A DNA stretch of 64,000 bases from a virus. The notes under the pieces are model-generated. The model did not search any database. It saw only the letters and a list, made by a program, of their open reading frames with translations, and was not told the origin of the DNA. Every line of letters begins with the position of its first letter. Position 1 is the first letter of the stretch. The stretch lies in the IMG/VR virus record IMGVR_UViG_3300042503_002394, positions 1 through 64,000 of that record; one strand, given 5' to 3'. Of the stretch, positions 1,998 through 58,390 are shown in pieces. A program made the position numbers and the translations under genes.

Positions 1998-4304
1998 TTA
2001 AATTACTGCCCAGCCTTTTAATAGGGCTGTTCCAGTTCTTAATTGTCTAAATATTAAACTATTTGCACCCCCCGCAGTCATTTGTCGTGATACTGTGATG
2101 CTTACGTTGGGGTTAATTGATACAACCTGCGTTCTATAGCGTAAAGTACCTGACGGCGTACCAGTCGTAGTTATTGGTAATGCAGGACCACCTAGAGTTG
2201 CCGCTACTTGAAATGTTCCAGCTGTAGCATTGACTACATAATAAATTCTATTAGTAACAATACCAGACGTTGTTACTATAGTTGCAAAAGAAACTTCATC
2301 CCCATTACTTAATCCATGACTTGCAAGGTTGACTAAATCACTAGCGTCTGTGAATGTTACTGCTCTTGTTGATGTAAGAGGGGAACCAGTACCAGTAATT
2401 TGCATACCTACAGCAATACCAGTGGTGTTTGCCATGCTTATTGTTGTGCTACCAACAGTTGTAGTTCCTGTAAGAGTTACAGGTGTCGGCGCTCCCCAAT
2501 TGTTTGTTACTGTTATTGTTTGAGAAGCAGCACCTATTGTATCTAGATAATTGAATATAGATTCTAATTCTTCTTTTGATAATTTACAACCACTATAACT
2601 TATTAAATATTCAGAACCATTCAATGCTGCTCTTGTAAGTGATATACAATTTGCAAAAATACCACTAAACTTTCCTGTAATTGTTCCAGCGCCTGAAATT
2701 AATAACGGTACTGTTGTAAGAGAAGTACAACTACTAAACATACTAACCATATTAGTAACAGCCCCTGTATTAAACAGAGGTACAGTTGTAAGAGAAGAGC
2801 AACCATTAAACATACTATTCATAGTAGTAACAAGCCCTGTATTGAATAACGGTATACTTGTAAGAGAAGGGCAACTACTAAACATACTACTCATATCAGT
2901 AACAGCTGCTGTATTAAAAAGCGGTACGCTTGTAAGAGAAGTACAACTACTAAACATAGAACTCATGAATTGCACAGCCCCTGTATTGAATAGTGGTACA
3001 CTTGTAAGAAAAGAGCAACTACTAAACATACCACTCATAGTAGTAACAGCCCCTGTATTAAACAGAGGTACACTTGTAAGAGAAGAGCAACCACTAAACA
3101 TACCACTCATAGTAGTAACAAGCCCTGTATTAAACAGAGGTACACTTGTAAGAGCAGTGCAATTATAAAACATATTAGTCATATTAGTAACAGCTGCTGT
3201 ATTGAATAGTGGTACAGTTGTAAGTGATCTACAGCTAAAAAACATTCCCTCTGGTGGAAAACTACTTCCCATAGTAGTAACATTTTGTGTGTTAAATAAT
3301 GGTACAGTCTGAAGACGGTAACAAGAGGAAAACATACCACTCATAGTAGTAACAAGCCCTGTATTAAACAGAGGTACACTTGTAAGAGAATAGCAACTAG
3401 CAAACATATTATTCATATTAGTAACAGCTGCTGTATTGAATAGTGGAACACTTGTAAGAGAAGAGCAACTAGCAAACATACTACTCATATTAGTAACAGC
3501 TGCTGTATTAAAAAGCGGTACGCTTGTAATAGACCTGCAACTATTAAACATATTACTCATATTAATAACAGCCCCTGTATTAAACAGTGGTACAGTTGTA
3601 AGAGAAGAGCAATTACTAAACATACTACTCGTATTAGTAACGTTAGTAGTACCGCTGAGGGATACATTTTTTAATGAAGTTAAATTGGCAAATGAATTAG
3701 ATAAGTTAGTTAATAATCCCATATTGACTCCAGTGAAACTAACTAAATTTTTACAAAAAGCCAAAGAAGCGGTTGCATTACCAAGAGTTAAACCTGTTAA
3801 ACTTGGGCAAGATAAAACTATTTCTAATATAGGAGAAGAATCGGGAAATGTAGATCCCGTTAATGCATACTTTTGGTTAAAGTCTACACTTGTTATATTT
3901 TGACCAGCTTGAGGAGTAATGACTACAACTGCCATTTTATAACCATCACTTGTAACGGTGGTATTTAAATCTGGGTCGGTATAAGAGTATTCATGTTGAG
4001 CTTTAACACCAGATGCAATATTTTCTGTTACACCATCACCCCAATCAACTGTATATGCTCCAGATATTGTAAAAGCGAGAAAGTTAGATTGTTGCGGAAA
4101 CACTGGCATCAACAAAGCTATTTTTTGCTCTGAAGATATTATAGTCGGCATTGTTAGCCAATCAGCTGGACGTGTCCAAGTGCTTGATGTTGAGCTAGTA
4201 GGTGATGGTTGTTTAATACGCAGTCGATCAAATCTATCCTTTTTAAAAAAAGAAGACTTACGTGAGACTAACGGTCCAACTTTATTTCCGTAACGAATAC
4301 TCAT
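1998..4304 (-). CDS. BspA-type leucine-rich-repeat virion surface protein
   Basis: 768 residues. Residues about 50-120 (WTRPADWLTMP...YTVDWGDG) resemble the beta-sandwich/PKD-like start found in BspA-type and DUF285 surface proteins. Twelve 23-residue repeats of the form SLTSVPLFNTxxVTxMxxMFxxC follow, plus a degenerate thirteenth. One unit carries a five-residue insertion around FPPEG. A C-terminal part has a module with HGLSNGDEV and YYVVNATAGTFQVA that I associate with phage structural proteins. BspA-family repeats mediate surface binding, so I infer an adhesin-like fibre or decoration protein. AGGATAAG lies about 8 nt before the ATG, one of the better ribosome binding sites here. Confidence 0.8.
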   Translation of the reverse strand: MSIRYGNKVGPLVSRKSSFFKKDRFDRLRIKQPSPTSSTSSTWTRPADWLTMPTIISSEQKIALLMPVFPQQSNFLAFTISGAYTVDWGDGVTENIASGVKAQHEYSYTDPDLNTTVTSDGYKMAVVVITPQAGQNITSVDFNQKYALTGSTFPDSSPILEIVLSCPSLTGLTLGNATASLAFCKNLVSFTGVNMGLLTNLSNSFANLTSLKNVSLSGTTNVTNTSSMFSNCSSLTTVPLFNTGAVINMSNMFNSCRSITSVPLFNTAAVTNMSSMFASCSSLTSVPLFNTAAVTNMNNMFASCYSLTSVPLFNTGLVTTMSGMFSSCYRLQTVPLFNTQNVTTMGSSFPPEGMFFSCRSLTTVPLFNTAAVTNMTNMFYNCTALTSVPLFNTGLVTTMSGMFSGCSSLTSVPLFNTGAVTTMSGMFSSCSFLTSVPLFNTGAVQFMSSMFSSCTSLTSVPLFNTAAVTDMSSMFSSCPSLTSIPLFNTGLVTTMNSMFNGCSSLTTVPLFNTGAVTNMVSMFSSCTSLTTVPLLISGAGTITGKFSGIFANCISLTRAALNGSEYLISYSGCKLSKEELESIFNYLDTIGAASQTITVTNNWGAPTPVTLTGTTTVGSTTISMANTTGIAVGMQITGTGSPLTSTRAVTFTDASDLVNLASHGLSNGDEVSFATIVTTSGIVTNRIYYVVNATAGTFQVAATLGGPALPITTTGTPSGTLRYRTQVVSINPNVSITVSRQMTAGGANSLIFRQLRTGTALLKGWAVI
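2695..3640 (-). repeat. Tandem 69-bp repeats encoding 23-residue BspA-type LRR units
   Basis: On the plus strand a block resembling GTATTAAACAGAGGTACAC...CTTGTAAGAGAAGAGCAAC recurs about every 69 bp, with a final degenerate unit near 2700. Units are very similar but not identical. Each encodes one 23-residue repeat with a conserved VPLFNT core, and the array stays in frame throughout. High unit similarity suggests recent expansion or gene conversion. Confidence 0.9.
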
Positions 4305-39233: not shown

Positions 39234-41453
39234 TTATCTACATAAAAATACTTTTGTCTGCAAGTTTCCAGATTGATCATAAAAAGAAAATGATTGTTCA
39301 GAATAAGAAACCCCCGTTGGAACAATAAGAAATTGACCACTTACATTTACTGTTGGAATTTTATCAAAATTCTTTTGTCCGCTAATTGTCTGATTGCCAC
39401 TTGTCATTACAAAACTAGCATTGCCACCAATATCAGGAATTGTATAAACTCTACTACCACTAATTAATGGTGCTGAAATATTAATTGCGCTTCCAAATTG
39501 ACCTGTTCTAAAAGATAATTGATTTGTAGTTGATTGAAATACGCCTGTTGCTTGAAATATAGTTGGACTTAAAAAATTCTTAATCCCACTAATTGACTGA
39601 CCTCCTTGAGTCATTACAAATGATGCGTCAATATTAACATCAGGAATCGTGTAAGTTTTACTTCCAATAATTGATGGAGCTGAAATATTAATCAAACTCC
39701 CAGCATTACCAGTTCTAAAGGTTAATTGATTTTGCGTTCTTTGAAATACAGCTCCACTTAAAAAAGTTTTACTTCCACTTATATTTTGACTTCCAGAAGT
39801 ATAAATTACATCGCCAATTATTAAACTTCTTTCGAAAGTTCCAGTATTTGTCACAAGACCATTGTTCCATGAAATTATTGATTGATTATTTAATTTAAAC
39901 AAACCGCTTTTACCATTACCAAACCCAGTTATATTTCCACTTAAAGCTGCTTCAAAATTTCCTTCAGTAGTAATTAAACCGTCTTGCCATTCAATTACTT
40001 GTGAATAACCAAATGAATCTGGTACAGATAAACTGCCATTTGCACCAAATTCTGGGAAACTTGTAATTTGATTATCTCCGCCTAATGTAGAACTCAATAC
40101 GCCATTATCCCATGAAATTATATCATCAATGCTATCAGAACCGCCAAGATCAATTTGTCTTTTTTGCAAAGACCCTATATTACTATTACTAAATCCATCC
40201 CACGCACCATTATTACCAATAAATTTAACCCACCTGCCATTATTGTATAAAAATAAATTATTATCTAAAAATTCAATTTGACCTTTTTCGCCATCATCTT
40301 CGCTATTGACTGGAGAATCATTCGTTCCATTAATAGCGTCTCCATTTTTAATAAAAAGTTTATCTAAAAAAATAGTTTGATTTGCAAAACTTTTTTGTCC
40401 ATTTATAATCTGATCTTCTGTTAATGTGACTATATTTGTAAAATCAACAACGCCAGGACCGCCTACTTCTCCCCAAAAATTAACTGGCCCATAAAAATCT
40501 GTAACTGAATCTTCTTGTAAAAAAAGAGAGCCTCCATTTATCGACAAGGCTCCTCCAGTCATATTTAACGCAAGTCCGCTATTAATATTAATACCTTGAT
40601 TATCAAAAATAATACGATTATTGCCAATATTAAGACTAGCGGAATTAAGATTACCCAGTGTATTAACTACGCCAGAGAAATTAGTGATAGAATTAGAATT
40701 CGTAGAAAATTGTCTTCCATTTTTAATTATTAAATTTGAATTTAAATCTAAATTTCCCGCCATATTTAAATTTCCAGAAAAAATGCCAGAAGCACCTGTC
40801 TGTATAAATAAATTATTATCATTTTTTATTGTTAAACTTGAATTTAAGTCTAAATCACCAAAAAAACCAACGTTGCCAGAAAAAATACCAGAAGAATTTT
40901 GATCTAAATATAGTCCCGCATTATCATTTATTAATAAATCATCGTTTACTACAACATTTCCTGCAATATCTATTCCATTTTCAAAATTTATATACAATTT
41001 ATTTGAAGTGTCCGCGATGATCGTATCATTTGTTATATCTGAAATTATTACAGAGCCACTTATATTTTCATTTATAATAGAGTTTTTACCAGCTAACACT
41101 GTACAAAATCTAGAACCTTTTTCAAAAATAGATCCATCACAGTTTAAATCTAAATTTTGAAAACCAGAAACGTTAGAGTTTATAGAATTAATGATTGCAT
41201 TGCCAGTGCCAATGATTCTATTATTTTGACCGCCCAAAATAACATTTCTAACATCTCCAAATATATTAGAGGAGTCTGTTGTATAAACTTTAGAGCCATT
41301 TAAAGTTAAACCACCAGTAATACTAAAATTTCCAGCTAAACTCCTATTTAAGTTTCCATGAACATAATTTGTACCTTGTTGGAAGAAAATATCTCCACTA
41401 GGACTTGAAAAAGTATGAATTTCAATTTGTTCTGGTTGAATTTTGTTGTACAT
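39234..41453 (-). CDS. Large tail fibre protein
   Basis: 739 residues. The N-terminus MYNKIQPEQIEIHTFSSPSGD looks like a virion-attachment segment. YadA-like NVILGGQNNRI follows, then shaft-like repeats (GDLDLNSSLTIKND..., AGNLDLNSNLIIKNG). Near the C-terminus a segment of about 60 residues (QLTFRTGNAGSLINISAPSI...YTIPD...SFVMTQGGQSISGIKNF) is present twice in tandem. The C-terminus ends in SFYDQSGNLQTKVFLCR. Inferred receptor-binding or structural fibre. It is surrounded by plus-strand early-type genes, an unusual position that suggests a separately acquired module. Confidence 0.75.
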   Translation of the reverse strand: MYNKIQPEQIEIHTFSSPSGDIFFQQGTNYVHGNLNRSLAGNFSITGGLTLNGSKVYTTDSSNIFGDVRNVILGGQNNRIIGTGNAIINSINSNVSGFQNLDLNCDGSIFEKGSRFCTVLAGKNSIINENISGSVIISDITNDTIIADTSNKLYINFENGIDIAGNVVVNDDLLINDNAGLYLDQNSSGIFSGNVGFFGDLDLNSSLTIKNDNNLFIQTGASGIFSGNLNMAGNLDLNSNLIIKNGRQFSTNSNSITNFSGVVNTLGNLNSASLNIGNNRIIFDNQGININSGLALNMTGGALSINGGSLFLQEDSVTDFYGPVNFWGEVGGPGVVDFTNIVTLTEDQIINGQKSFANQTIFLDKLFIKNGDAINGTNDSPVNSEDDGEKGQIEFLDNNLFLYNNGRWVKFIGNNGAWDGFSNSNIGSLQKRQIDLGGSDSIDDIISWDNGVLSSTLGGDNQITSFPEFGANGSLSVPDSFGYSQVIEWQDGLITTEGNFEAALSGNITGFGNGKSGLFKLNNQSIISWNNGLVTNTGTFERSLIIGDVIYTSGSQNISGSKTFLSGAVFQRTQNQLTFRTGNAGSLINISAPSIIGSKTYTIPDVNIDASFVMTQGGQSISGIKNFLSPTIFQATGVFQSTTNQLSFRTGQFGSAINISAPLISGSRVYTIPDIGGNASFVMTSGNQTISGQKNFDKIPTVNVSGQFLIVPTGVSYSEQSFSFYDQSGNLQTKVFLCR

Positions 41454-41463
41454 TCTTTACTAT
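41436..41463 (+). promoter_or_regulatory. Sigma70-like promoter, TTGAAT-N16-TACTAT
   Basis: TTGAAT (41436-41441), 16-bp spacer, TACTAT (41458-41463). It overlaps the divergent fibre start and lies 30 nt before the ATG of the SSB-like gene, leaving a leader of about 23 nt. Confidence 0.5.
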
Positions 41464-41493
41464 AAGTTATCAATAAAAATTACACCATTTCAA

Positions 41494-42078
41494 ATGAAAT
41501 ATACTTTATATAAACCTAATTCAAAAAATACTGGTTCAGCTTTTAGTTTCGAGATTGGAACTTCAAAGAATGGAGAGACCGCACTTTATGTATCAATGAT
41601 CCAACAACATAGTTGGAACGATGTAACAAAAAATGGATCTTTTAAAGAAAATTCTAAAAATCCAGAAAAATCAGCCTCAATTAAAATTTCCGTAACAGAA
41701 GCTGGAGAATTTCTTTCTTCTTTTAAAACCAGAATACCTTACACGGCTTTTCATAAAACAAAAGAGGATAGCACAATAATTAAATTAAATCCATGGGACA
41801 AAGTTAGAAAAATCAAAGAAATGGATGGAGAAAAATCTTATAATTCGCCAGCATTTGGTTTTTCTGTTTCTAGAAATTCAAATCAAAATTTTAAACTTCC
41901 GCTTGAAGCTGGAGAGGTTGAAGTATTAGCGCAGCTTTTAATTGAATACATCAAAACATCTTTTACCTTTTCAAGAAAGCAGGAAAATAATAATCAAAAC
42001 ACATATCAACAAAAGAAACAATACCCATCAAAGCCAAAATCCGAACAAGTTGAATTAGAAGACGATGCCCCATTCTAA
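41494..42078 (+). CDS. Single-stranded-DNA-binding-like protein
   Basis: 194 residues from ATG 41494 (MKYTLYKPNSKNTGSAFSFEIG); a TTG 51 nt upstream opens the same frame but is embedded in the promoter. Beta-rich N-terminal part with ALYVSMIQQHSWN, ASIKISVTEAGEF, TIIKLNPWDKVRKI and FGFSVSRNSNQNFKLPLEAGEVEVLAQLL. The Q/N-rich linker ends in the acidic tail EQVELEDDAPF. An acidic tip with terminal PF is the hallmark of SSBs (DDxxPF), used to contact replication partners. The fold itself is not recognised with certainty. Confidence 0.6.
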   Translation: MKYTLYKPNSKNTGSAFSFEIGTSKNGETALYVSMIQQHSWNDVTKNGSFKENSKNPEKSASIKISVTEAGEFLSSFKTRIPYTAFHKTKEDSTIIKLNPWDKVRKIKEMDGEKSYNSPAFGFSVSRNSNQNFKLPLEAGEVEVLAQLLIEYIKTSFTFSRKQENNNQNTYQQKKQYPSKPKSEQVELEDDAPF

Positions 42079-43798
42079 AATTAAAATTCTTTTTCATTCT
42101 AATTATAGTAGAATGGTAACTGGATTTGGCAAAAATATGCGAAATCTATTACTTGCACTACATAATGATCCAGATATAGAGGTTATTGAAGCTGCTAATG
42201 GTGTTCCATATGGAGCTGATCTTAAAACTCCATGGAAGTGCTACGGAACAGCTCCTTCTGATCCTAATTTAATGAATGAGATAGGAAATGATGGAATGAA
42301 ACAAAGAATGGCTTCATATGGTTATTATTGTATTGATAAAATTATTGAAGAATGTAAGCCAGACATATATTTGGGTATTGAAGATATTTGGGCATTCAAA
42401 GATTTTGAGAAAAAACCATGGTGGAATACTTTGCGCACAATAATTTGGACTACACTTGATAGTGTTCCAATTTTACCAGACGCATTTCATATTGCGCCTA
42501 AATGTGATGAATTTATTGTATGGGCATCTTTTGCAGAACAGGAAATGAAAAAAAATGGTTTTCAAAATGTCAAAACTATTCATGGAGCTATTGATTATTC
42601 AGATTTTAAACCTCTTGCAGAAAGAGATCAAATTAGGTCAAAGTTCAATATAAACGAAGATTTTGTAATTGGCTTTGTTTTTAAAAATCAATTAAGAAAA
42701 TCTGTTCCAAATCTTTTAGATGGATTTAGACTATTTAAAGAAAAGAATCCAAAGTTAAAAACCAAATTACTTCTTCATACAGATTGGTCTGAAGTTAATC
42801 ATGGATGGGATATTCCAAGATATATTAAAGAAAAAAACATAAATGAAGATGATGTTTTAGCTTCTTACATATGTCATCAATGTGGAGAATTCTTTTTACA
42901 CAAATACATTGGAGAAAAGAAAGATTGCCCTTCTTGTGGAGCTAAGGAAAGAGTTCATACAAAAAACAGTGGACTTGGGGTTTCCGAAGATCAATTGAAT
43001 CAAATATATTCTTGCATGGACGTTTATTGTCATCCATTTACAAGTGGTGGTCAAGAGCTTCCAATTCAAGAAGCAAAAGCTGCTGGATTAATTACATTGG
43101 TTACAGAGTATTCGTGCGGAACAGATTCTTGTTATCCTCATCAAGGTGGACTACCCTTAAAGTGGAATGAATACAGAGAACCCCATACTCAATTTATTAA
43201 AGCAACAACCTGTCCACAAGACATTTGCGAAAAACTTGATAAAGTACTCAAAATGAGTTTTGATGAAAAACAATCTTTAATTCAAAATGGTAAAAAAACA
43301 GTTAATGAAAAATTTTCTGTACAAAAAATCAAAAATGATTTAAAGCAAATTTTTGTTGATTTAAAAAATAAAAACAAAGAAATCATTGTTAATGAAGAAG
43401 TCCAAAAACAACAAACAATTTCATTTGAAAGTCTTTTAGATAAAAATCAAGAAGATAGAATTTTAATTGTTATGCCAGAATCTGCTGGAGATGTATTCAT
43501 GTTAACCTCATTGTTGCCATCCATAAAAGAAGCTTACCCAGAAAAAGACCTTTACTTTGCTACTAAAAAAGAGTTTTTCCCTATTTTAGATTTAAATGAA
43601 TTTATATACAAAATCATAGAATACAATCCATTTATGGAAAATCTCGTAATGATGGAAGGAAGATCTGATCATCAAGGATATTTTCAAATATGTTTTCTGC
43701 CACATATTGGTACTCAAAGACAATTAGACTATCTGCATCAGGGAAATAAAGATAAAATTATGTTTGAAATTCATTCAGAAAATTACAATAAATACTAA
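42065..43798 (+). CDS. GT4 glycosyltransferase with zinc ribbon, fused to the N-terminal half of a GT9
   Basis: 577 residues. Residues 1-440 form a GT-B glycosyltransferase: KIKILFHSNYSRMVTGFGKNMR start, FVIGFVFKNQLRKSVPNLLDGF second Rossmann domain, and SGGQELPIQEAKAAG (E-x-x-x-x-E donor site). Between them lies a C4 zinc ribbon, C270-x2-C273 and C288-x2-C291, not normal for GT4. Residues about 463-577 (DRILIVMPESAGDVFMLTSLLPSIKEAYP) match the first Rossmann domain of heptosyltransferase-like GT9 enzymes. The second GT9 half is encoded by the next gene, 1 nt downstream. Overlaps the SSB-like gene by 14 nt. Confidence 0.8.
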   Translation: MPHSKIKILFHSNYSRMVTGFGKNMRNLLLALHNDPDIEVIEAANGVPYGADLKTPWKCYGTAPSDPNLMNEIGNDGMKQRMASYGYYCIDKIIEECKPDIYLGIEDIWAFKDFEKKPWWNTLRTIIWTTLDSVPILPDAFHIAPKCDEFIVWASFAEQEMKKNGFQNVKTIHGAIDYSDFKPLAERDQIRSKFNINEDFVIGFVFKNQLRKSVPNLLDGFRLFKEKNPKLKTKLLLHTDWSEVNHGWDIPRYIKEKNINEDDVLASYICHQCGEFFLHKYIGEKKDCPSCGAKERVHTKNSGLGVSEDQLNQIYSCMDVYCHPFTSGGQELPIQEAKAAGLITLVTEYSCGTDSCYPHQGGLPLKWNEYREPHTQFIKATTCPQDICEKLDKVLKMSFDEKQSLIQNGKKTVNEKFSVQKIKNDLKQIFVDLKNKNKEIIVNEEVQKQQTISFESLLDKNQEDRILIVMPESAGDVFMLTSLLPSIKEAYPEKDLYFATKKEFFPILDLNEFIYKIIEYNPFMENLVMMEGRSDHQGYFQICFLPHIGTQRQLDYLHQGNKDKIMFEIHSENYNKY

Positions 43799-43799
43799 G

Positions 43800-44933
43800 A
43801 TGCATTTAATAGAAAGATATTCATTATCAACTGGATTAAAAATTAATAATCCATCAATTTCAGAACAATTTTTTCCAATCTCTGCTGATAAATTTGTATG
43901 TTTTCATACATCAGCAAAAGATAATTTACGAGATTATGATTATTGGAATGAAGTTAAATTTATTTTAGATCCTATTTTAAATAAATATGGATACAAAACA
44001 ATTCAAATTGGGCTTGAAAAAGATCCAACAATAAATTGCGACATAGATTTAAGAGGTAAAACCTCTATTCGTCAAATGGCATATATTGTAAAAAAATGTA
44101 ATTTATTTCTTGGGGTAGATTCATTCCCAGCTCATTTAGCAGGATTCTTCAAAAGAAAAATGGTTTCAATTTACTCTAATTCTTTTATGGAGTGTGTTAA
44201 GCCTTATTGGGGAGAAAGAGGAGATCAGATTTTAATAGAAACGCATAGAGCTGATAAAGAAAAACCTTCTTTCTCTTTTAATGAAAATCCAAAAACAGTT
44301 AATAGAATAAAACCAGAAGAAATAGCAAGTGCTGGATTAAAACTACTTAATATTCCAAATGAAAAAATCAATTATAAAACAATAAATATTGGAGCAAGAT
44401 ATAAAGATGAATGTTTAGAAATTATTCCATCACAAAAATGCGAAGTAATATGTGATTCTATTAACGTAAGAATGGATCTTTTTCATAATGAGGAAAATTT
44501 ATTCAATATTCTTAAAACAAATAATGCTGAAGTCACTTTAAGCAAACCAATTCATGATGATCTATTATTGTCAAAAAGAATTAAAAATATAAACTATGTC
44601 GCAGAAGAGTTCGATGTGGAATTTGTCAAAAGAATTAAAAAATCTGGAGTTAATCATATATTGCTTTGCACATCGAAAGAAAAACTTTCTGAACAAAGAT
44701 TTAAGTTATTTGATTTTACGGTTAATTTATTTGAATTAAGCGAATTGATTAAAATCAATAGAGAAAAATTGCCAAACTTTGATTTACAAAAAACAAAAAT
44801 TAAATCAAACAAAAAAATACTTTGCGGCAACAAAGTATATGACACTTACTATGATTTTAATGATCGCAAAAATGAAGATGATTTTTTTCTTGACTTAGAT
44901 TGGTATTATCTATATGATGACCAACATGAGTAA
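43800..44933 (+). CDS. C-terminal half of a GT9 (heptosyltransferase-like) enzyme plus extra domain
   Basis: 377 residues from ATG 43800 (MHLIERYSLSTG); a TTG upstream is less likely. KFVCFHTSAKDNLRDYDYW, DIDLRGKTSIRQMAYIVKKCNLFLGVDSFPAHLAGFF is the donor-binding motif of GT9 (D-L-x-G-x-TS...LxxC-xLFLGxDSgxxHxA). The first Rossmann half is at the C-terminus of the preceding 577-aa protein, so the enzyme appears split between two chains. Residues about 220-377 form an extra alpha/beta domain of unknown function. Its end overlaps the next gene. Confidence 0.75.
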   Translation: MHLIERYSLSTGLKINNPSISEQFFPISADKFVCFHTSAKDNLRDYDYWNEVKFILDPILNKYGYKTIQIGLEKDPTINCDIDLRGKTSIRQMAYIVKKCNLFLGVDSFPAHLAGFFKRKMVSIYSNSFMECVKPYWGERGDQILIETHRADKEKPSFSFNENPKTVNRIKPEEIASAGLKLLNIPNEKINYKTINIGARYKDECLEIIPSQKCEVICDSINVRMDLFHNEENLFNILKTNNAEVTLSKPIHDDLLLSKRIKNINYVAEEFDVEFVKRIKKSGVNHILLCTSKEKLSEQRFKLFDFTVNLFELSELIKINREKLPNFDLQKTKIKSNKKILCGNKVYDTYYDFNDRKNEDDFFLDLDWYYLYDDQHE

Positions 44934-45693
44934 ACAAGAAACTTCAATTCCTCCATTCGAAAAATATGTTCGTAATGAGCATGGACTTATTAAATCCGTA
45001 GAATATATTTATTCTGAAGATGGATCTATTGATTGGCGAGCAATGATTAAACCAGAATTCCTTTATCCAAATAAGGGATGGTTTGACATTAGAAATCAAA
45101 GTGTTCCAAATTCAATGGATGGCTTGAATGATAAACAATTGCTTATTATGTTGGGTGGCATCAAGGAATTAGCTAAATTGCGCGGGTTTACTGATGTGGC
45201 ATATCAAGTTTCCCACATTAAAGAAGATTATGTTGTGGCTAAGTGTCAGATTACGTGGATTGGAAACTATGAGACAAATGATAGATCTGTTCTTTTTGAA
45301 GATGTGGCTAATGCCACAGCGAATAATACGGATGATTTTTGTATTAAATTTTTAGAAACTATTGCTTGCAATAGAGCGTTTGTCCGTTGTGTGCGTAACT
45401 TTTTGAATATTCATATTGTTGGTGCAGACGAAATTGATCGCTCTAAAAATAATTTATATTCATCGGAATCTCCAGAAAATGTAGATGACCTTACAGTGCT
45501 AAAGCCAAGTGGTCTTTTAGAAAAAATTGTTTCTGAAAAAGGCATGAAATCGTTTGATGATTTTGTTGTTTGGCTTAGGGATCAATGGACATCTAATTTA
45601 TATAGAAATGAAGATGTAAAAAATTGGGTTCAATATAAAGACATCCCAGCGAAAGAATGTAGAAAATTAATTGTTTTGTTAAAAAAGCATTAA
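44926..45693 (+). CDS. Protein of unknown function, possibly recombination/annealing-related
   Basis: 255 residues from ATG 44926 (MSKQETSIPPFEKYV); an ATG 12 nt upstream is also possible. Features: IDWRAMIKPEFLYPN, LLIMLGGIKELAKLRGF, SVLFEDVANATANNT and FLETIACNRAFVRCVRNFLNIHIVGADEI. The 'ANATxxNT...AxNRAFVRxVRNFL' block is conserved-looking and reminds me of phage single-strand annealing or Rad52-like proteins, but the match is weak. It is last in the SSB-led operon. The stop overlaps the stop of the convergent tail gene at 45690. Confidence 0.5.
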   Translation: MSKQETSIPPFEKYVRNEHGLIKSVEYIYSEDGSIDWRAMIKPEFLYPNKGWFDIRNQSVPNSMDGLNDKQLLIMLGGIKELAKLRGFTDVAYQVSHIKEDYVVAKCQITWIGNYETNDRSVLFEDVANATANNTDDFCIKFLETIACNRAFVRCVRNFLNIHIVGADEIDRSKNNLYSSESPENVDDLTVLKPSGLLEKIVSEKGMKSFDDFVVWLRDQWTSNLYRNEDVKNWVQYKDIPAKECRKLIVLLKKH

Positions 45694-53158: not shown

Positions 53159-56100
53159 TTAATTTACTTGACTTAATCTTCTTTCAATATCTAAAAGTCT
53201 TTGATTAATCGTAGTTGATAATCTGTTTAAATTGCTTGTAAATTCTTGGAATCCCTTTACGTTATCACTTGCATTGAATATCGATTCTGATAAAGCTTCC
53301 ATAGCTTTAGGTATTCCAGTTGGTTCAAAATCTTGTGAAAACTTAGCAATCCTTTCGTTAAGATTTTTTAATTCTAGGGAAGTCCTATTCCTTTCATCTT
53401 CCAATTTTTTAACATCATCTTTATTTTCATCTGGTTTGCCAGCAGCAACACCAGTTAAAGCAGCTTGAATAGTTTTTCTTGACTGATCAAATCTTGAACC
53501 TTGCATTTTTTCATCTATGAGTTTTTGTAATGCAGGAACATTTTTAACATCAAGTTTTGCCGCTTGTATAGCTTTTTGTATATTTAACGGTAATTGATTT
53601 GAACCTAATGATTTTAATAACGCATCTTCAATTGCTTTATAATTTATTTGTGATGCAGCAGTACCAGCGGTTAAATTTTGAGTTTCCTTTAAACCAAGCC
53701 CAGAAGATTCGGCTAATTTTCTAGCAGCCTCTTCGCCAAAAATTTCCCTAAATTTAACAAACTGCTCAGAAACTCTATCTATAATTTTAGCAGCCTCCTC
53801 TGGATTTGTTGCTGAAATTTTTGCCGCTTCTGAAAACGCTTTAGAAATTGCAAGAGGATCAATTTTTGGACCTTGTGTTATTGATGATAATTTTTCTGTG
53901 ATTCCAGAAATAGATGATGTTATTTTTGATTGTATTTCTTTATTAGTGGTGATTAATTTGTTTTCTAAGTCTGTTCTTTGATTAATCATTCCTTTCATTG
54001 TCTCAGCAACATTATTTCTAAATGTTTGCGCAGATGAAATTACATTATCTTTAAATTTTTGAGCAGCTTCGCCTTCAAGATTAATATATTTTGACAGTTC
54101 TTGAGTTACTCCTTGAGAGCCTTTTTCCATATAGGCTTTAAATACATCAGCAGAAACTGTACCAGAAATTTCAGCACCCGTTTTACCTGACAATTGCGAT
54201 TGTTTAACCTGGTTCATCATACTAGCAAAATCAGAACTAGCGAAATTTGCCCTAAAATCTACAGCAGATTTAGTGCTTTGAGTTACGCTTTGTTGCGTTT
54301 CAGTTGCTGATGTTACAGCACCTGAATATTTAGATCCTTCTTTCGCTGTAAATCCTCCCGCTATTCCCTCAAGAAATGATTGTTGTTCTAATTTAGTAGA
54401 TACAAGATCTAATGTTTTAGAAAACTTCGCTGCAGACTCCTGTATTTTTTTTGCAAAATCTTCTGTAAAATTAATGTGATCCAAACTATTTTTCGCTCTT
54501 TTTATAGCCTCTATATATTTAAAAGATGCTTCGTTTTTATCTTCTTCTGTAGAAGTTTGCTCTTCGTAAATTTTTTTCAAATTAGATTCTGCGTCCTGTA
54601 ATGGTTTTATAGACATACTTCTATCTTTTAACGCTTTGATTAAATCTTGTTGAGCGGATGCAGCGTCTTTGTTGGTTTCAGAACCAAATGCTTCTTGTCG
54701 GCCCTTCCTTACAGCGGTTAATCCCTTAAGTTTTTTATTAACTTCTTCTTGTATTTTAACACCCTCCTCTTGTTTGTTTTTTACATCTTTATAAGCGTCT
54801 ACTACAGACATTATCACTCCAGCAGCAGCACCTACTGCTACACCATATGGACCAAAAACAGATCCAATTGAAGCAAATTGAGCGGCTGAAGAAGTTATTG
54901 TTTTAGCAGTGCTAGTCATAGCCGAGTCTAATTCTTCTGTTGGGCCGATTAAAGATGGAACAGAGGAAAGAGCCATAGATAACGCAATAGAGGCTCCACT
55001 GAATTTTTCAAGTGAAAATTTAACTTTTCCATCTATGTCGTCAGGTGCTTTAGCTGCATAATTAGGGATAAAACCACGAGCTGCTCCATATAATTTTGGA
55101 TTAGCCCCTTCTTTTCTTGCGCGACTAATTCCTTGAATACCACCAGCTGGTTCATCACGACGATTAGCAACCATTAATCCCATTGGATTCATGGAGTTCT
55201 TTAATGATGAATTTTGGTCTACATAAATTTGCGAAGCTGGAATGCCAGCAGACATTTCGCGGCCAATAGCCTCTTTAAGTGGATCTGCAAAATTAGGAAT
55301 GTATCCAGTCGCTTTATTTTTTTTAGAAATTGATTTGCTAATTGCATCATTAATTTTTGCAGAATATTCTTTCTTAACTTTAGCCGCCATGCTTTCTTTG
55401 TTTGTTTCTGCCGAATATTTGAAATCTGCTAATCCACTAGATACAATTGAATCTTCTCCAAATAGTTTTTTAATAGAATTTATTTGTTTGTCAGTAGCTC
55501 CAGCGGTTCTTACATCAAAATTACCGCCAGAAGCTGGATTTAATGCTTTGTATTGCAAGGTAGAGCTGATTGCAGCTTCAAATAAAGATCCAGAAGCAGA
55601 TCTAATAGCACCTTTAAATCCTTCACCACCCATAACTTCTTTAACGGAATCTGGTTCTGCTGGTTTTAAATCTAACGCTTTTGCTAATACTTGTGATTGA
55701 TTTAAAATGAATTTTCTTGCTAGTTCCTCTATTTCTGTTTCTCCAAAGTTTTTTTCAAAATTTTGCCTAAGTTCATCTGTACCTCCTGCTTTAAAAGCGT
55801 CGAAAACATATTTTAATTTAACGCCAGAATCTTTTAAGTTTTGTGTATAAGTAATGTCTTTTGAATTATCATTAGGCGTTAACATGGTTGGCATTTTAGT
55901 TCCAATTACAGAAGCTACATCAATAACTTTTTTTTGCTTGTCACCAACTTCTAAAGCGTTTTTAAGCTTAGACGCTGGAACTGCATATTGTTGCCCATTA
56001 TATGTAATTACTTGAGATGTTCTTAATTGAGTTTTAGTTGGATCTAATCCACTATTTGGATCTGCCGCTAACTGTCTTAAAATTGCCTGATCTTGCAATA

Positions 56101-58390
56101 ATGGAAGTGTACGATTTTGAAAATTTGGTATAAAGCCTTTGGCCGCATTAATTAAATTAAAATTACGAGATTTTGATTTAACATAACCCATAAAATCAAA
56201 CTGATTTAATGGCGCATAAGTTGTTCCTTTTAATTGTTTTTTACTTCTTAAATCCCCTTCTTCTGCGACCGTTCTTCCAGCTCTTCTAGATAAGATATCA
56301 AGATTTTTTGTATAAAGATAAGACACTTTACCGTCAGAACCATTTACTGCTGAAATTATAGCTTCTAAATTTTTAGATATACCACCTCCTTTTGCACGAG
56401 CAGCTCCAGAAAGAATATCAATTTCGGTGGCATTAGACACATCATCAGCATTAGAAAGAAATTTTCCTGTTCTACCAGCTAATGTCGATTTGCCCGATCC
56501 CGCTGGACCAATAATAAGATTCTTTTTAACTTGAGAAGCAAGAACTGCTTTTAAGGTAGCCCCTTTGTCTGGAGCAATCCTATCGGAATCATATATATAT
56601 TTTGCAAAGTTTGGTATATAACCTTTATTATACATTGGTATAACAGCAGAATCTCCATTTTTTCCGAATTTTGGTATTTCGATTTCTTCATTATTCATGA
56701 TGAACTTTTGTCCACCAATTTTGCCTTTGCTCATTTTAGCCTTAACATTCGGACTTGCTCCTAACATTCGCGCCTGAGCCTCCTCAACCATAAATCCAGC
56801 AGCAAAAGTTTTTTTGCCTTTGCCAGTAAAGCCCTTATCTGGACTGTATCCAACAACACCTCTTTGAGCTGCTGCCGTAGCAATACTTCTTAATAACTGT
56901 TCTTGTTGTCTTAATAAATCATTTTCTGCTTTAATTGCATTAATAACAGCCTGTTCTTTTTGCGCTTGCGTTGCTGTTGAACTAGCTATAATTGCTCTTA
57001 ATTGCTGATCTCTTGACAAAAGACCAACAATTCCACTTTCAATATTTTTAATTTTTTCTGATTCAGAACCGATTTGTAATACAGTTTTAAAACCTTCTTT
57101 TGCAAATTTTGCAACAAGAGAAAATATTTTTAAAAATCCTGTTGTTATAAGAACCAAACCTGGACCAGAAAGAAAGTTTCCAATAGCGTCAAATATTCCT
57201 TGAATAAATTTATTACCCTTTTCTGGATCAAATGCTGTTTCTAAAAAGGATGTAAACTCATTAGCCAAGCTTAAAAGATTTTTTATAATTGGCCCGAACG
57301 TTATTGTCCCAATTTTTTCTGATAAATTTGTTAAACCAACAACTAACGCATTCATTTGAGAGCTGATCATTTCATTTAATGCGGCATTTTTTGTAAACGC
57401 TTCATCCATCGCTGATGCAGATTTGCTTGCCGCTTGAGAAAAAATAGATGTATCCGAACCCAAATCCTTGAGTGCGGCACTAACAATGTTTATTTGATAA
57501 ACGCCACCAGCCAATTCTTTAATTTTATTAGCTACAGTTGGATCGCTTATATTTTCAAGTGATTGAGATAATGCTTGAAGTTTTTGAACGCCACTTTGAG
57601 AAGAATTAATCTCGACACCAAGTTCCCGCAAATCTTCTACAACAGAACCTCTGCCTAATCTAGTAAATATAGATTTTAATGCGTTACCAATAACTGCTCC
57701 ACCACGAGATGTTGTTTGTTCAACAGCAGTAACTATACCTAAAAGTTCATCGAAACTAACTCCAGCATCTTCTGCGGTAGAACCAGCTCTACTAAATGCC
57801 TCAGCCAAATCTTGAGCTGAAACAGCAAACGCTGTATCAACAGCAACAAGTTTGTTGGTTATTTGTTCTGCGGTTAATCCAGCGCTACTAAATCCATTAA
57901 TTGCGGCGGTAAGAGCTTTTACTGATTTAACTGAATCAAGACCAGAAATTCTCGTTAAAACCAATGCAGACTCAAGTCTTTTTGCAGTTTCCTCTGCATT
58001 TAAACCCTGTCTTGCTAATTCTGATGCGGCATCTGCAACAACATTAAAAGATTGTCCAGTAGTTTTTGCAACATCAAAAATTGTATTTCTAAAATCGTTA
58101 AGCTGGGAACCTGTAGATCCAATTATTGTACTTATTTCCGTTAATCTTTTTTCAACATTTATCGTATTAGCAATAAGCCCTTTGAACGCTTGAGAAACTC
58201 CATTTAATATAGAGGTAGTAGCTCCGAAAGCAAATACACGAGCAGTTGAAGCGTCAAGTGATTTTTGAAACTCTGAAGCTTGACCCGTAATCCTTCCTAA
58301 AGCTTGTTGAACCTGTTTTGACGCAGCATTAATGCTTTGGGGATTCAGGGTTAAATTACCTGTAATATTAATACCTGATGTGTTGGCCAT
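53159..58390 (-). CDS. Tail tape measure protein with embedded P-loop and PD-(D/E)XK-like modules
   Basis: 1743 residues. Residues 1-450 follow the TMP_2 pattern (ARVFAFGATTS, FDVAKTTGQSFNVVADAASELARQG, LNAEETAKRL, SFDELLGIVTAVEQTTSRGG). Around 420-440 and 1150-1180 are hydrophobic segments. Between them, four G[YF]IPN[FY] motifs start at 590, 752, 1029 and 1106. The 596-751 segment has Walker A GPAGSGKS (628-635) and KVSYLYTKNLDILSRRAGR, as in P-loop kinases of zeta-toxin type. The 752-1029 segment has E938, D959 and D989-F-K991 spaced as in PD-(D/E)XK nucleases. The rest is helical. Tape measure proteins set tail length and are ejected first. An upstream TGTGTAAT box sits 8 nt before the ATG. 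Confidence 0.9.
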   Translation of the reverse strand: MANTSGINITGNLTLNPQSINAASKQVQQALGRITGQASEFQKSLDASTARVFAFGATTSILNGVSQAFKGLIANTINVEKRLTEISTIIGSTGSQLNDFRNTIFDVAKTTGQSFNVVADAASELARQGLNAEETAKRLESALVLTRISGLDSVKSVKALTAAINGFSSAGLTAEQITNKLVAVDTAFAVSAQDLAEAFSRAGSTAEDAGVSFDELLGIVTAVEQTTSRGGAVIGNALKSIFTRLGRGSVVEDLRELGVEINSSQSGVQKLQALSQSLENISDPTVANKIKELAGGVYQINIVSAALKDLGSDTSIFSQAASKSASAMDEAFTKNAALNEMISSQMNALVVGLTNLSEKIGTITFGPIIKNLLSLANEFTSFLETAFDPEKGNKFIQGIFDAIGNFLSGPGLVLITTGFLKIFSLVAKFAKEGFKTVLQIGSESEKIKNIESGIVGLLSRDQQLRAIIASSTATQAQKEQAVINAIKAENDLLRQQEQLLRSIATAAAQRGVVGYSPDKGFTGKGKKTFAAGFMVEEAQARMLGASPNVKAKMSKGKIGGQKFIMNNEEIEIPKFGKNGDSAVIPMYNKGYIPNFAKYIYDSDRIAPDKGATLKAVLASQVKKNLIIGPAGSGKSTLAGRTGKFLSNADDVSNATEIDILSGAARAKGGGISKNLEAIISAVNGSDGKVSYLYTKNLDILSRRAGRTVAEEGDLRSKKQLKGTTYAPLNQFDFMGYVKSKSRNFNLINAAKGFIPNFQNRTLPLLQDQAILRQLAADPNSGLDPTKTQLRTSQVITYNGQQYAVPASKLKNALEVGDKQKKVIDVASVIGTKMPTMLTPNDNSKDITYTQNLKDSGVKLKYVFDAFKAGGTDELRQNFEKNFGETEIEELARKFILNQSQVLAKALDLKPAEPDSVKEVMGGEGFKGAIRSASGSLFEAAISSTLQYKALNPASGGNFDVRTAGATDKQINSIKKLFGEDSIVSSGLADFKYSAETNKESMAAKVKKEYSAKINDAISKSISKKNKATGYIPNFADPLKEAIGREMSAGIPASQIYVDQNSSLKNSMNPMGLMVANRRDEPAGGIQGISRARKEGANPKLYGAARGFIPNYAAKAPDDIDGKVKFSLEKFSGASIALSMALSSVPSLIGPTEELDSAMTSTAKTITSSAAQFASIGSVFGPYGVAVGAAAGVIMSVVDAYKDVKNKQEEGVKIQEEVNKKLKGLTAVRKGRQEAFGSETNKDAASAQQDLIKALKDRSMSIKPLQDAESNLKKIYEEQTSTEEDKNEASFKYIEAIKRAKNSLDHINFTEDFAKKIQESAAKFSKTLDLVSTKLEQQSFLEGIAGGFTAKEGSKYSGAVTSATETQQSVTQSTKSAVDFRANFASSDFASMMNQVKQSQLSGKTGAEISGTVSADVFKAYMEKGSQGVTQELSKYINLEGEAAQKFKDNVISSAQTFRNNVAETMKGMINQRTDLENKLITTNKEIQSKITSSISGITEKLSSITQGPKIDPLAISKAFSEAAKISATNPEEAAKIIDRVSEQFVKFREIFGEEAARKLAESSGLGLKETQNLTAGTAASQINYKAIEDALLKSLGSNQLPLNIQKAIQAAKLDVKNVPALQKLIDEKMQGSRFDQSRKTIQAALTGVAAGKPDENKDDVKKLEDERNRTSLELKNLNERIAKFSQDFEPTGIPKAMEALSESIFNASDNVKGFQEFTSNLNRLSTTINQRLLDIERRLSQVN

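Follow-up and report, generated by a model that had tools for sequence, protein, structure and literature searches.

Enzyme-like modules exchanged between uniform IPNF linkers in phage tape measure proteins

Tape measure proteins (TMPs) set tail length in phages. The usual view is of a ruler that at most bears an enzyme against the cell wall, as in YomI of SPbeta and in Staphylococcus SPbeta-like phages, where such enzymes act on peptidoglycan. A parallel on the head side of the virion is the MuF toxin, a head protein whose toxin-like domains are exchangeable and in which a single C-terminal domain varies. The MuF polymorphic toxins of temperate phages are credited to Jamet et al. 2017, as cited in PMC7911831. 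The closest idea to the arrays described here is that of polyvalent proteins, found in phages and conjugative elements, in which many disparate enzymatic domains (GNATs, kinases, zincins, zeta-like kinases) occupy one long polypeptide whose injection alongside the DNA is predicted (Iyer et al. 2017, PMC5512222); the words 'tape' and 'linker' never occur in that paper. Tme of Streptomyces contractile injection systems (CIS) is related to TMPs, has an active nuclease domain and is loaded in a tail-like particle (PMC11126660). TMPs have also been described as mosaic by sequence, but no genuine recent case was confirmed in them (PMC10684548). Among open-licence PMC papers, we found none on the IPNF motif and none on enzyme-module arrays in TMPs.

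We analyzed a window of 64,000 nucleotides (positions 1 to 64,000) from the 85-kb IMG/VR virus record IMGVR_UViG_3300042503_002394. Genes for a ribonucleotide reductase, an ATP-dependent protease, a DNA polymerase and a helicase like DnaB are also present in the window. The large minus-strand ORF at 10127-12466 matches the phage ATP-dependent protease family phrog_4871 (8e-113), and a plus-strand gene block at 41443-45693, flanked by minus-strand blocks, includes a glycosyltransferase-like protein (phrog_2170, 1e-24). A first-pass annotation had read the N-terminus of the 1743-aa minus-strand ORF at 53159-58390 as that of a TMP, and this identity was confirmed by PF10145 (E 6.1e-25) and by PHROG tape-measure families (best 5.5e-41). 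A family search with the C-terminus (aa 1112-1743), which that annotation had also likened to an ordinary TMP, gave no match above threshold, and the tail assignment of the adjoining genes is weak (phrog_290 minor tail, E 0.12). The four G[YF]IPN[FY] motifs annotated at aa 590, 752, 1029 and 1106 lie at exactly those positions. A regular-expression scan of all six frames found no further copies in the window, and 2000 shuffles of the protein produced 0 chance matches. The features of the gene, all on the minus strand, are as follows.

53159..58390, minus strand: TMP gene with the module array, 1743 aa (ORF, PF10145 and PHROG matches)
57506..58081, minus strand: PhageMin_Tail / TMP N-terminal domain, aa 104-295 (PF10145)
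56606..56623, minus strand: linker motif 1, GYIPNF, aa 590-595, array start (edge of a BLAST block)
56120..56623, minus strand: module C, P-loop kinase-like, aa 590-757 (invariant residues, AF2 model)
56486..56509, minus strand: Walker A, GPAGSGKS, aa 628-635 (sequence match, conservation)
56120..56137, minus strand: linker motif 2, GFIPNF, aa 752-757 (end of the same BLAST block)
55289..56137, minus strand: module B, nuclease-like, aa 752-1034 (invariant residues, AF2 model)
55577..55579, minus strand: E938, module position E187 (conservation)
55514..55516, minus strand: D959, module position D208 (conservation)
55418..55426, minus strand: D989-F990-K991, module positions 238-240 (conservation)
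55289..55306, minus strand: linker motif 3, GYIPNF, aa 1029-1034 (sequence match)
55058..55306, minus strand: module A, 83 aa (aa 1029-1111), the most frequent module, often in last place (73 copies across 72 contigs; alignment)
55058..55075, minus strand: linker motif 4, GFIPNY, aa 1106-1111, array end (BLAST blocks stop here)
53162..55057, minus strand: C-terminal TMP region past the array, aa 1112-1743

Relatives were gathered from IMG/VR using the whole window protein and each of its segments separately. Because some of the search patterns contained the motif, its presence in those matches is partly by construction. In motif-free searches, the loci lay between IPNF motifs in long ORFs in 6 of 6 cases for the K module and in 5 of 7 for module C sought by its P-loop alone, the two exceptions being TMPs with another linker. 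Single-linkage clustering with the motifs left on the segments chained families together and was replaced by a procedure in which TMPs were cut at the motif, the motifs trimmed off and the segments clustered. Among 78 non-redundant IMG/VR TMPs, this yielded 47 architectures (module orders) built from 29 module families, each shared by two or more of these TMPs, together with 29 singletons. Every one of the 61 complete TMPs has its first motif within aa 534-653. The number of modules ranges from 1 to 8, with 2-4 in most TMPs and 8 in some, and TMP length varies with array content from 1743 to 4350 aa. The commonest large modules are the nuclease-like B (43 contigs) and D (15 contigs). A tblastn search of the cultured phages in INPHARED with modules A, B and C and two long arrays (L037, L075) found none of them; INPHARED held no isolate with an IPNF array, and all IPNF-array data come from uncultured viruses. 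Four TMPs with module A (L093-L096) are on contigs binned into metagenome-assembled genomes (MAGs) named Halobacteriovorax (two contigs), Flavobacteriaceae and Verrucomicrobiales; these bins are possible host hints, given that viral contigs may be mis-binned.

A likeness to polyvalent proteins, several disparate enzyme domains in one polypeptide, is clear in relatives with GNAT, HAD-like and P-loop modules; the window array shows only P-loop and nuclease-like signatures. What differs from polyvalent proteins is that a TMP is the carrier and that every module is bounded by the same linker, at which cassettes are exchanged. Tme has one C-terminal EndA-type domain and belongs to a bacterial CIS, whereas here several central modules of many families reside in phage TMPs. 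The likeness to MuF toxins lies in a virion protein with exchangeable toxin-like domains, although here the protein belongs to the tail and has 1-8 internal modules, set off by identical linkers. TMPs that carry cell-wall enzymes likewise combine a TMP with enzymatic domains, and INPHARED TMP matches include some annotated as transglycosylase or lysostaphin-like, but the modules described here resemble cytosolic enzymes. The TMP of one relative (L002, 6944-15562) has a phage lysozyme domain as well (PF00959, 9e-19), in its C-terminal part and outside the IPNF array.

The first-pass annotation had proposed asking whether segments between motifs are swapped while the flanks are conserved, and module orders, blocks of DNA identity, near-isogenic pairs and conflicting trees all indicate that they are. 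The order is C-B-A in the window, B-C-A in L001 and L002, B-C-I-A in L006 and B-P-c32-A-C-c30-A in L049. Between the window protein and those of L001 and L002, the N-terminal region is 43-45% identical, compared to 92% for C and 93-94% for A. At the DNA level, the N-terminal region and flank are ~64% identical, while the P-loop module forms a 92% block that runs from motif to motif, with edges at gene nt 1764/1768 (1768 being the first base of motif 1) and 2271 (the last base of motif 2). The corresponding A-module block extends from gene nt 3091 to 3331-3335, i.e., motifs 3 and 4. L049 has the nearest backbone to the window (79%), yet its C is only 39% identical. Consistent with this conflict, the C tree rejects a grouping of the window with L049 (p_AU 2.4e-26), and the backbone tree rejects a grouping of the window with L001, L002 and L006 (p_AU 8e-16).

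Closely related phages gave the same picture. L002 and L016 share 98.6% identity along 6.9 kb of upstream sequence, up to the end of a motif, then carry B-C and D-E-P, respectively, and regain 96-99% identity (aligned blocks) from the motif preceding A. L016 and L018 (97.9% identical) differ by a swap of P and U, while the differences between L080 and L087 are insertions of one C and one T module, each flanked by two linkers. L040, L041 and L048 have upstream flanks that are 96-97% identical and arrays that differ. Among alignments of at least 80% identity, 380 of 504 alignment ends within arrays fell in a motif (all pairs), compared to 51 expected if ends were uniform; because alignment ends are non-independent events, we use this ratio rather than a p-value as evidence. 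Modules are gained, lost, reordered and exchanged whole by recombination with edges at the linker, and the exchange is precise and recent. These near-isogenic swaps supply the recent TMP mosaicism that the study of phage protein mosaicism (PMC10684548) could not confirm.

Over 337 copies, the linker consensus is A-[AS]-x-G-[FY]-[IV]-P-N-[FY]-A. Codon entropy in the motif is close to that elsewhere in the same genes (1.89 and 1.84 bits for G, 1.68 and 1.57 for P, 0.84 and 0.80 for N, 0.72 and 0.81 for F), and 320 linker copies comprise 186 distinct 18-mers. This background-like codon use and diversity ruled out the motif as a DNA recombination or recognition site, and because its codons vary like background, we conclude that the linker is conserved as protein; short homology at the linker DNA may help recombination. 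Both the linker and the modules are maintained by selection on the protein, with dN/dS of 0.09-0.12 for module A and 0.16-0.19 for module C (purifying selection). In AlphaFold models, pLDDT falls below 50 over the linker that closes C and the one that opens B, consistent with a linker that is flexible at module ends. The motifs are domain boundaries that enclose swappable modules, in line with the earlier suggestion that they could be domain linkers, and the linker may serve as a processing site or a flexible hinge. The first linkers in L001, L002 and L034 read GEYI[IV]PNF or SEYVVNNY. These resemble 'GEYVVN', a phrase frequent in TMPs; an origin of the IPNF linker from that TMP repeat is possible.

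Module C contains GPAGSGKS at aa 628 and LSRRAGR at aa 700, as annotated, and thus has the Walker A plus the basic lid residues of zeta-toxin and small P-loop kinases. Across 17 C modules, down to 27% identity, D14, P40, G42, G44, K45, T47, R114 and R117 are invariant. The AF2 model (pLDDT 76.6) is an alpha/beta P-loop domain, not a coiled coil. Among the Foldseek matches listed, zeta1 toxin 6epi had the highest probability (0.92, E 0.029), with adenylate/NMP, guanylate and gluconate kinases scoring near it and none significant; Pfam gave no zeta family match. The Walker A and the basic residues are conserved and the predicted architecture is alpha/beta, but with so weak a fold match the likeness to zeta toxins proposed at first is weakly supported.

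In module B, E938, D959 and D989-x-K991 (x being F) are likewise at the positions first assigned, and they are conserved in homologues, as is the Walker A of module C. Neither outcome that the first-pass annotation named as refuting its reading, coiled coil alone or unconserved residues of these kinds, was observed. Among 36 B modules with 17-46% identity to the window, G183, D208 and K240 are invariant, D or E occupies position 238 in 36 of 36, and E187 is kept in 34 of 36, so that the E...D...(D/E)xK active-site pattern of PD-(D/E)XK nucleases is conserved. Profile-profile comparison links eight families (B, M, D, Q, R, S, K and c31), with best pairs at 83-98%, and E/D/[DE]xK align in the inspected pairs of these families. 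Naming B from its structure failed, as its model had no significant Foldseek match in PDB or BFVD. In the AF2 model (pLDDT 80), which departs from the alpha-beta-beta-beta-alpha-beta core of PD-(D/E)XK enzymes, a helix separates the D strand from the DxK strand. The residue pattern behind the initial PD-(D/E)XK assignment is thus conserved, but the fold lacks Foldseek support in those databases; because of this and the extra helix, we call B nuclease-like and keep it out of the superfamily.

Enzyme signatures were also found among other modules of the relatives. Module N is a GNAT by Pfam (PF00583, 7.2e-7, 29.9 bits against a cutoff of 20.7), and L065 has a PcfJ-like stretch (Pfam, 3.2e-7). 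Module H keeps HAD motifs I-IV (DxDxT, T/S, K, D), with D15, D17, T19, T61, K113 and D126 invariant in 6 members; the member scanned had no Pfam match, and no PDB sequence match was found. HExxH is present in one module family, and module I, judged by eye alone, looks like a protein kinase (G-x-G, VKK, HGxNY, DxG). Most module families matched no known domain. PADLOC and PHROGs gave no confident match to module representatives, and a PDB sequence search with B, E, D, H and I profiles returned nothing convincing.

Collectively, these findings suggest that a tail protein may bring a payload of variable composition into the bacterium. We consider it probable that the TMP is a modular effector-delivery polyprotein with interchangeable cassettes, in which delivery and catalysis are the inferred parts. 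A fixed N-terminal TMP domain is followed, at about aa 545-650, by an array of small, mostly globular, putatively enzymatic modules, each with the same presumably flexible linker on both sides. The TMP would leave the tail with or ahead of the DNA, carrying P-loop kinase-like, nuclease-like, acetyltransferase and HAD-like modules that could reach the periplasm or cytoplasm, where they would probably blunt host defences or take over host functions in the infected cell. Fast module turnover may reflect an arms race with host defence. Precedents for delivery are the lambda TMP, which becomes labelled at the inner membrane in the course of injection (PMC13190303), and the TMP-related CIS effector Tme, whose nuclease is functional (PMC11126660). 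Against this reading, a tail tube would have little room for several copies of folded modules of 170-280 aa unless they were unfolded or staggered there. The fold matches of B and C, none of them significant, the many module families that matched no known domain and the origin of all arrays in uncultured viruses also weigh against it. A bolder version, which is possible but which we lean slightly against, is a standardised cassette platform that carries effector enzymes in any combination, with a universal linker cut in the host to free the enzymes at DNA entry and used across lineages as a payload-exchange interface.

Alternatively, the modules could be inert structural spacers that tune tail length or lumen packing, and their swaps ordinary mosaicism that is tolerated since nothing but length and linkers counts. 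Modules do sit in a tail-length protein whose size follows array content, and most families have no known enzyme match, but we judge this unlikely: catalytic-type residues stay invariant while the remainder diverges to 17-46% identity, GNAT, HAD-like and HExxH signatures are present, modules are under strong purifying selection, and array length differs greatly between near-isogenic phages. The modules could instead act in the virion-producing cell, in late takeover, superinfection exclusion or assembly, if the linker were cleaved to release them ahead of tail assembly or in the course of it. A linker that is predicted to be disordered at module ends and is conserved as protein is what a cleavage site would look like, and a published proposal has injected multidomain polyproteins being processed (PMC5512222). 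Fusion to a virion protein would nonetheless be a costly route to acting in the producer cell, and a dedicated protease gene was not identified, which makes this quite unlikely.

It is more improbable still that the nuclease-like modules are selfish, cutting rival TMP genes to spread their own cassette like homing endonucleases while other modules hitch-hike. These are the commonest large modules, exchange is precise and recent, and nuclease genes are reported at boundaries of genetic exchange in phages (PMC10448857). However, P-loop, HAD, GNAT and A modules with differing neighbours are also exchanged, and the diversity of linker 18-mers argues against a conserved recognition sequence. Walker A-like strings are common in large proteins, which could favour an ordinary TMP with chance motif matches, but no such matches are expected from the shuffles, and conserved residues and cassette exchange recur in dozens of independent contigs. 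Motif-edged blocks, the excess of alignment ends, tree conflict and near-isogenic swaps refute that explanation, to which we give virtually no credence. If effector delivery by modular TMPs is correct, a large unread set of phage counter-defence and takeover functions would lie inside a tail protein, and TMP cargo and the passage of globular cargo through the tail would become directly testable. The fixed insertion point and fixed array edges offer a natural experiment on the carrying capacity of a tail protein.

The array principle may not be confined to the IPNF linker, as suggested by two marine TMPs with an apparent [IVL]QKFAGGG linker. These proteins (L179:1423-6393 and L180:1426-6471) have a C-type P-loop module, and their segments are apparently split by [IVL]QKFA[GA]GGK. 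Both also hold further FE..D..[DE]xK-like segments. In the cultured-phage records inspected, matches to L179 involved only the general TMP repeat DTVPAMLTPGEF and not the modules. In the L180 TMP, a repeat that begins RADQLRIGDVLSSGET occurs as three tandem copies that are almost identical.
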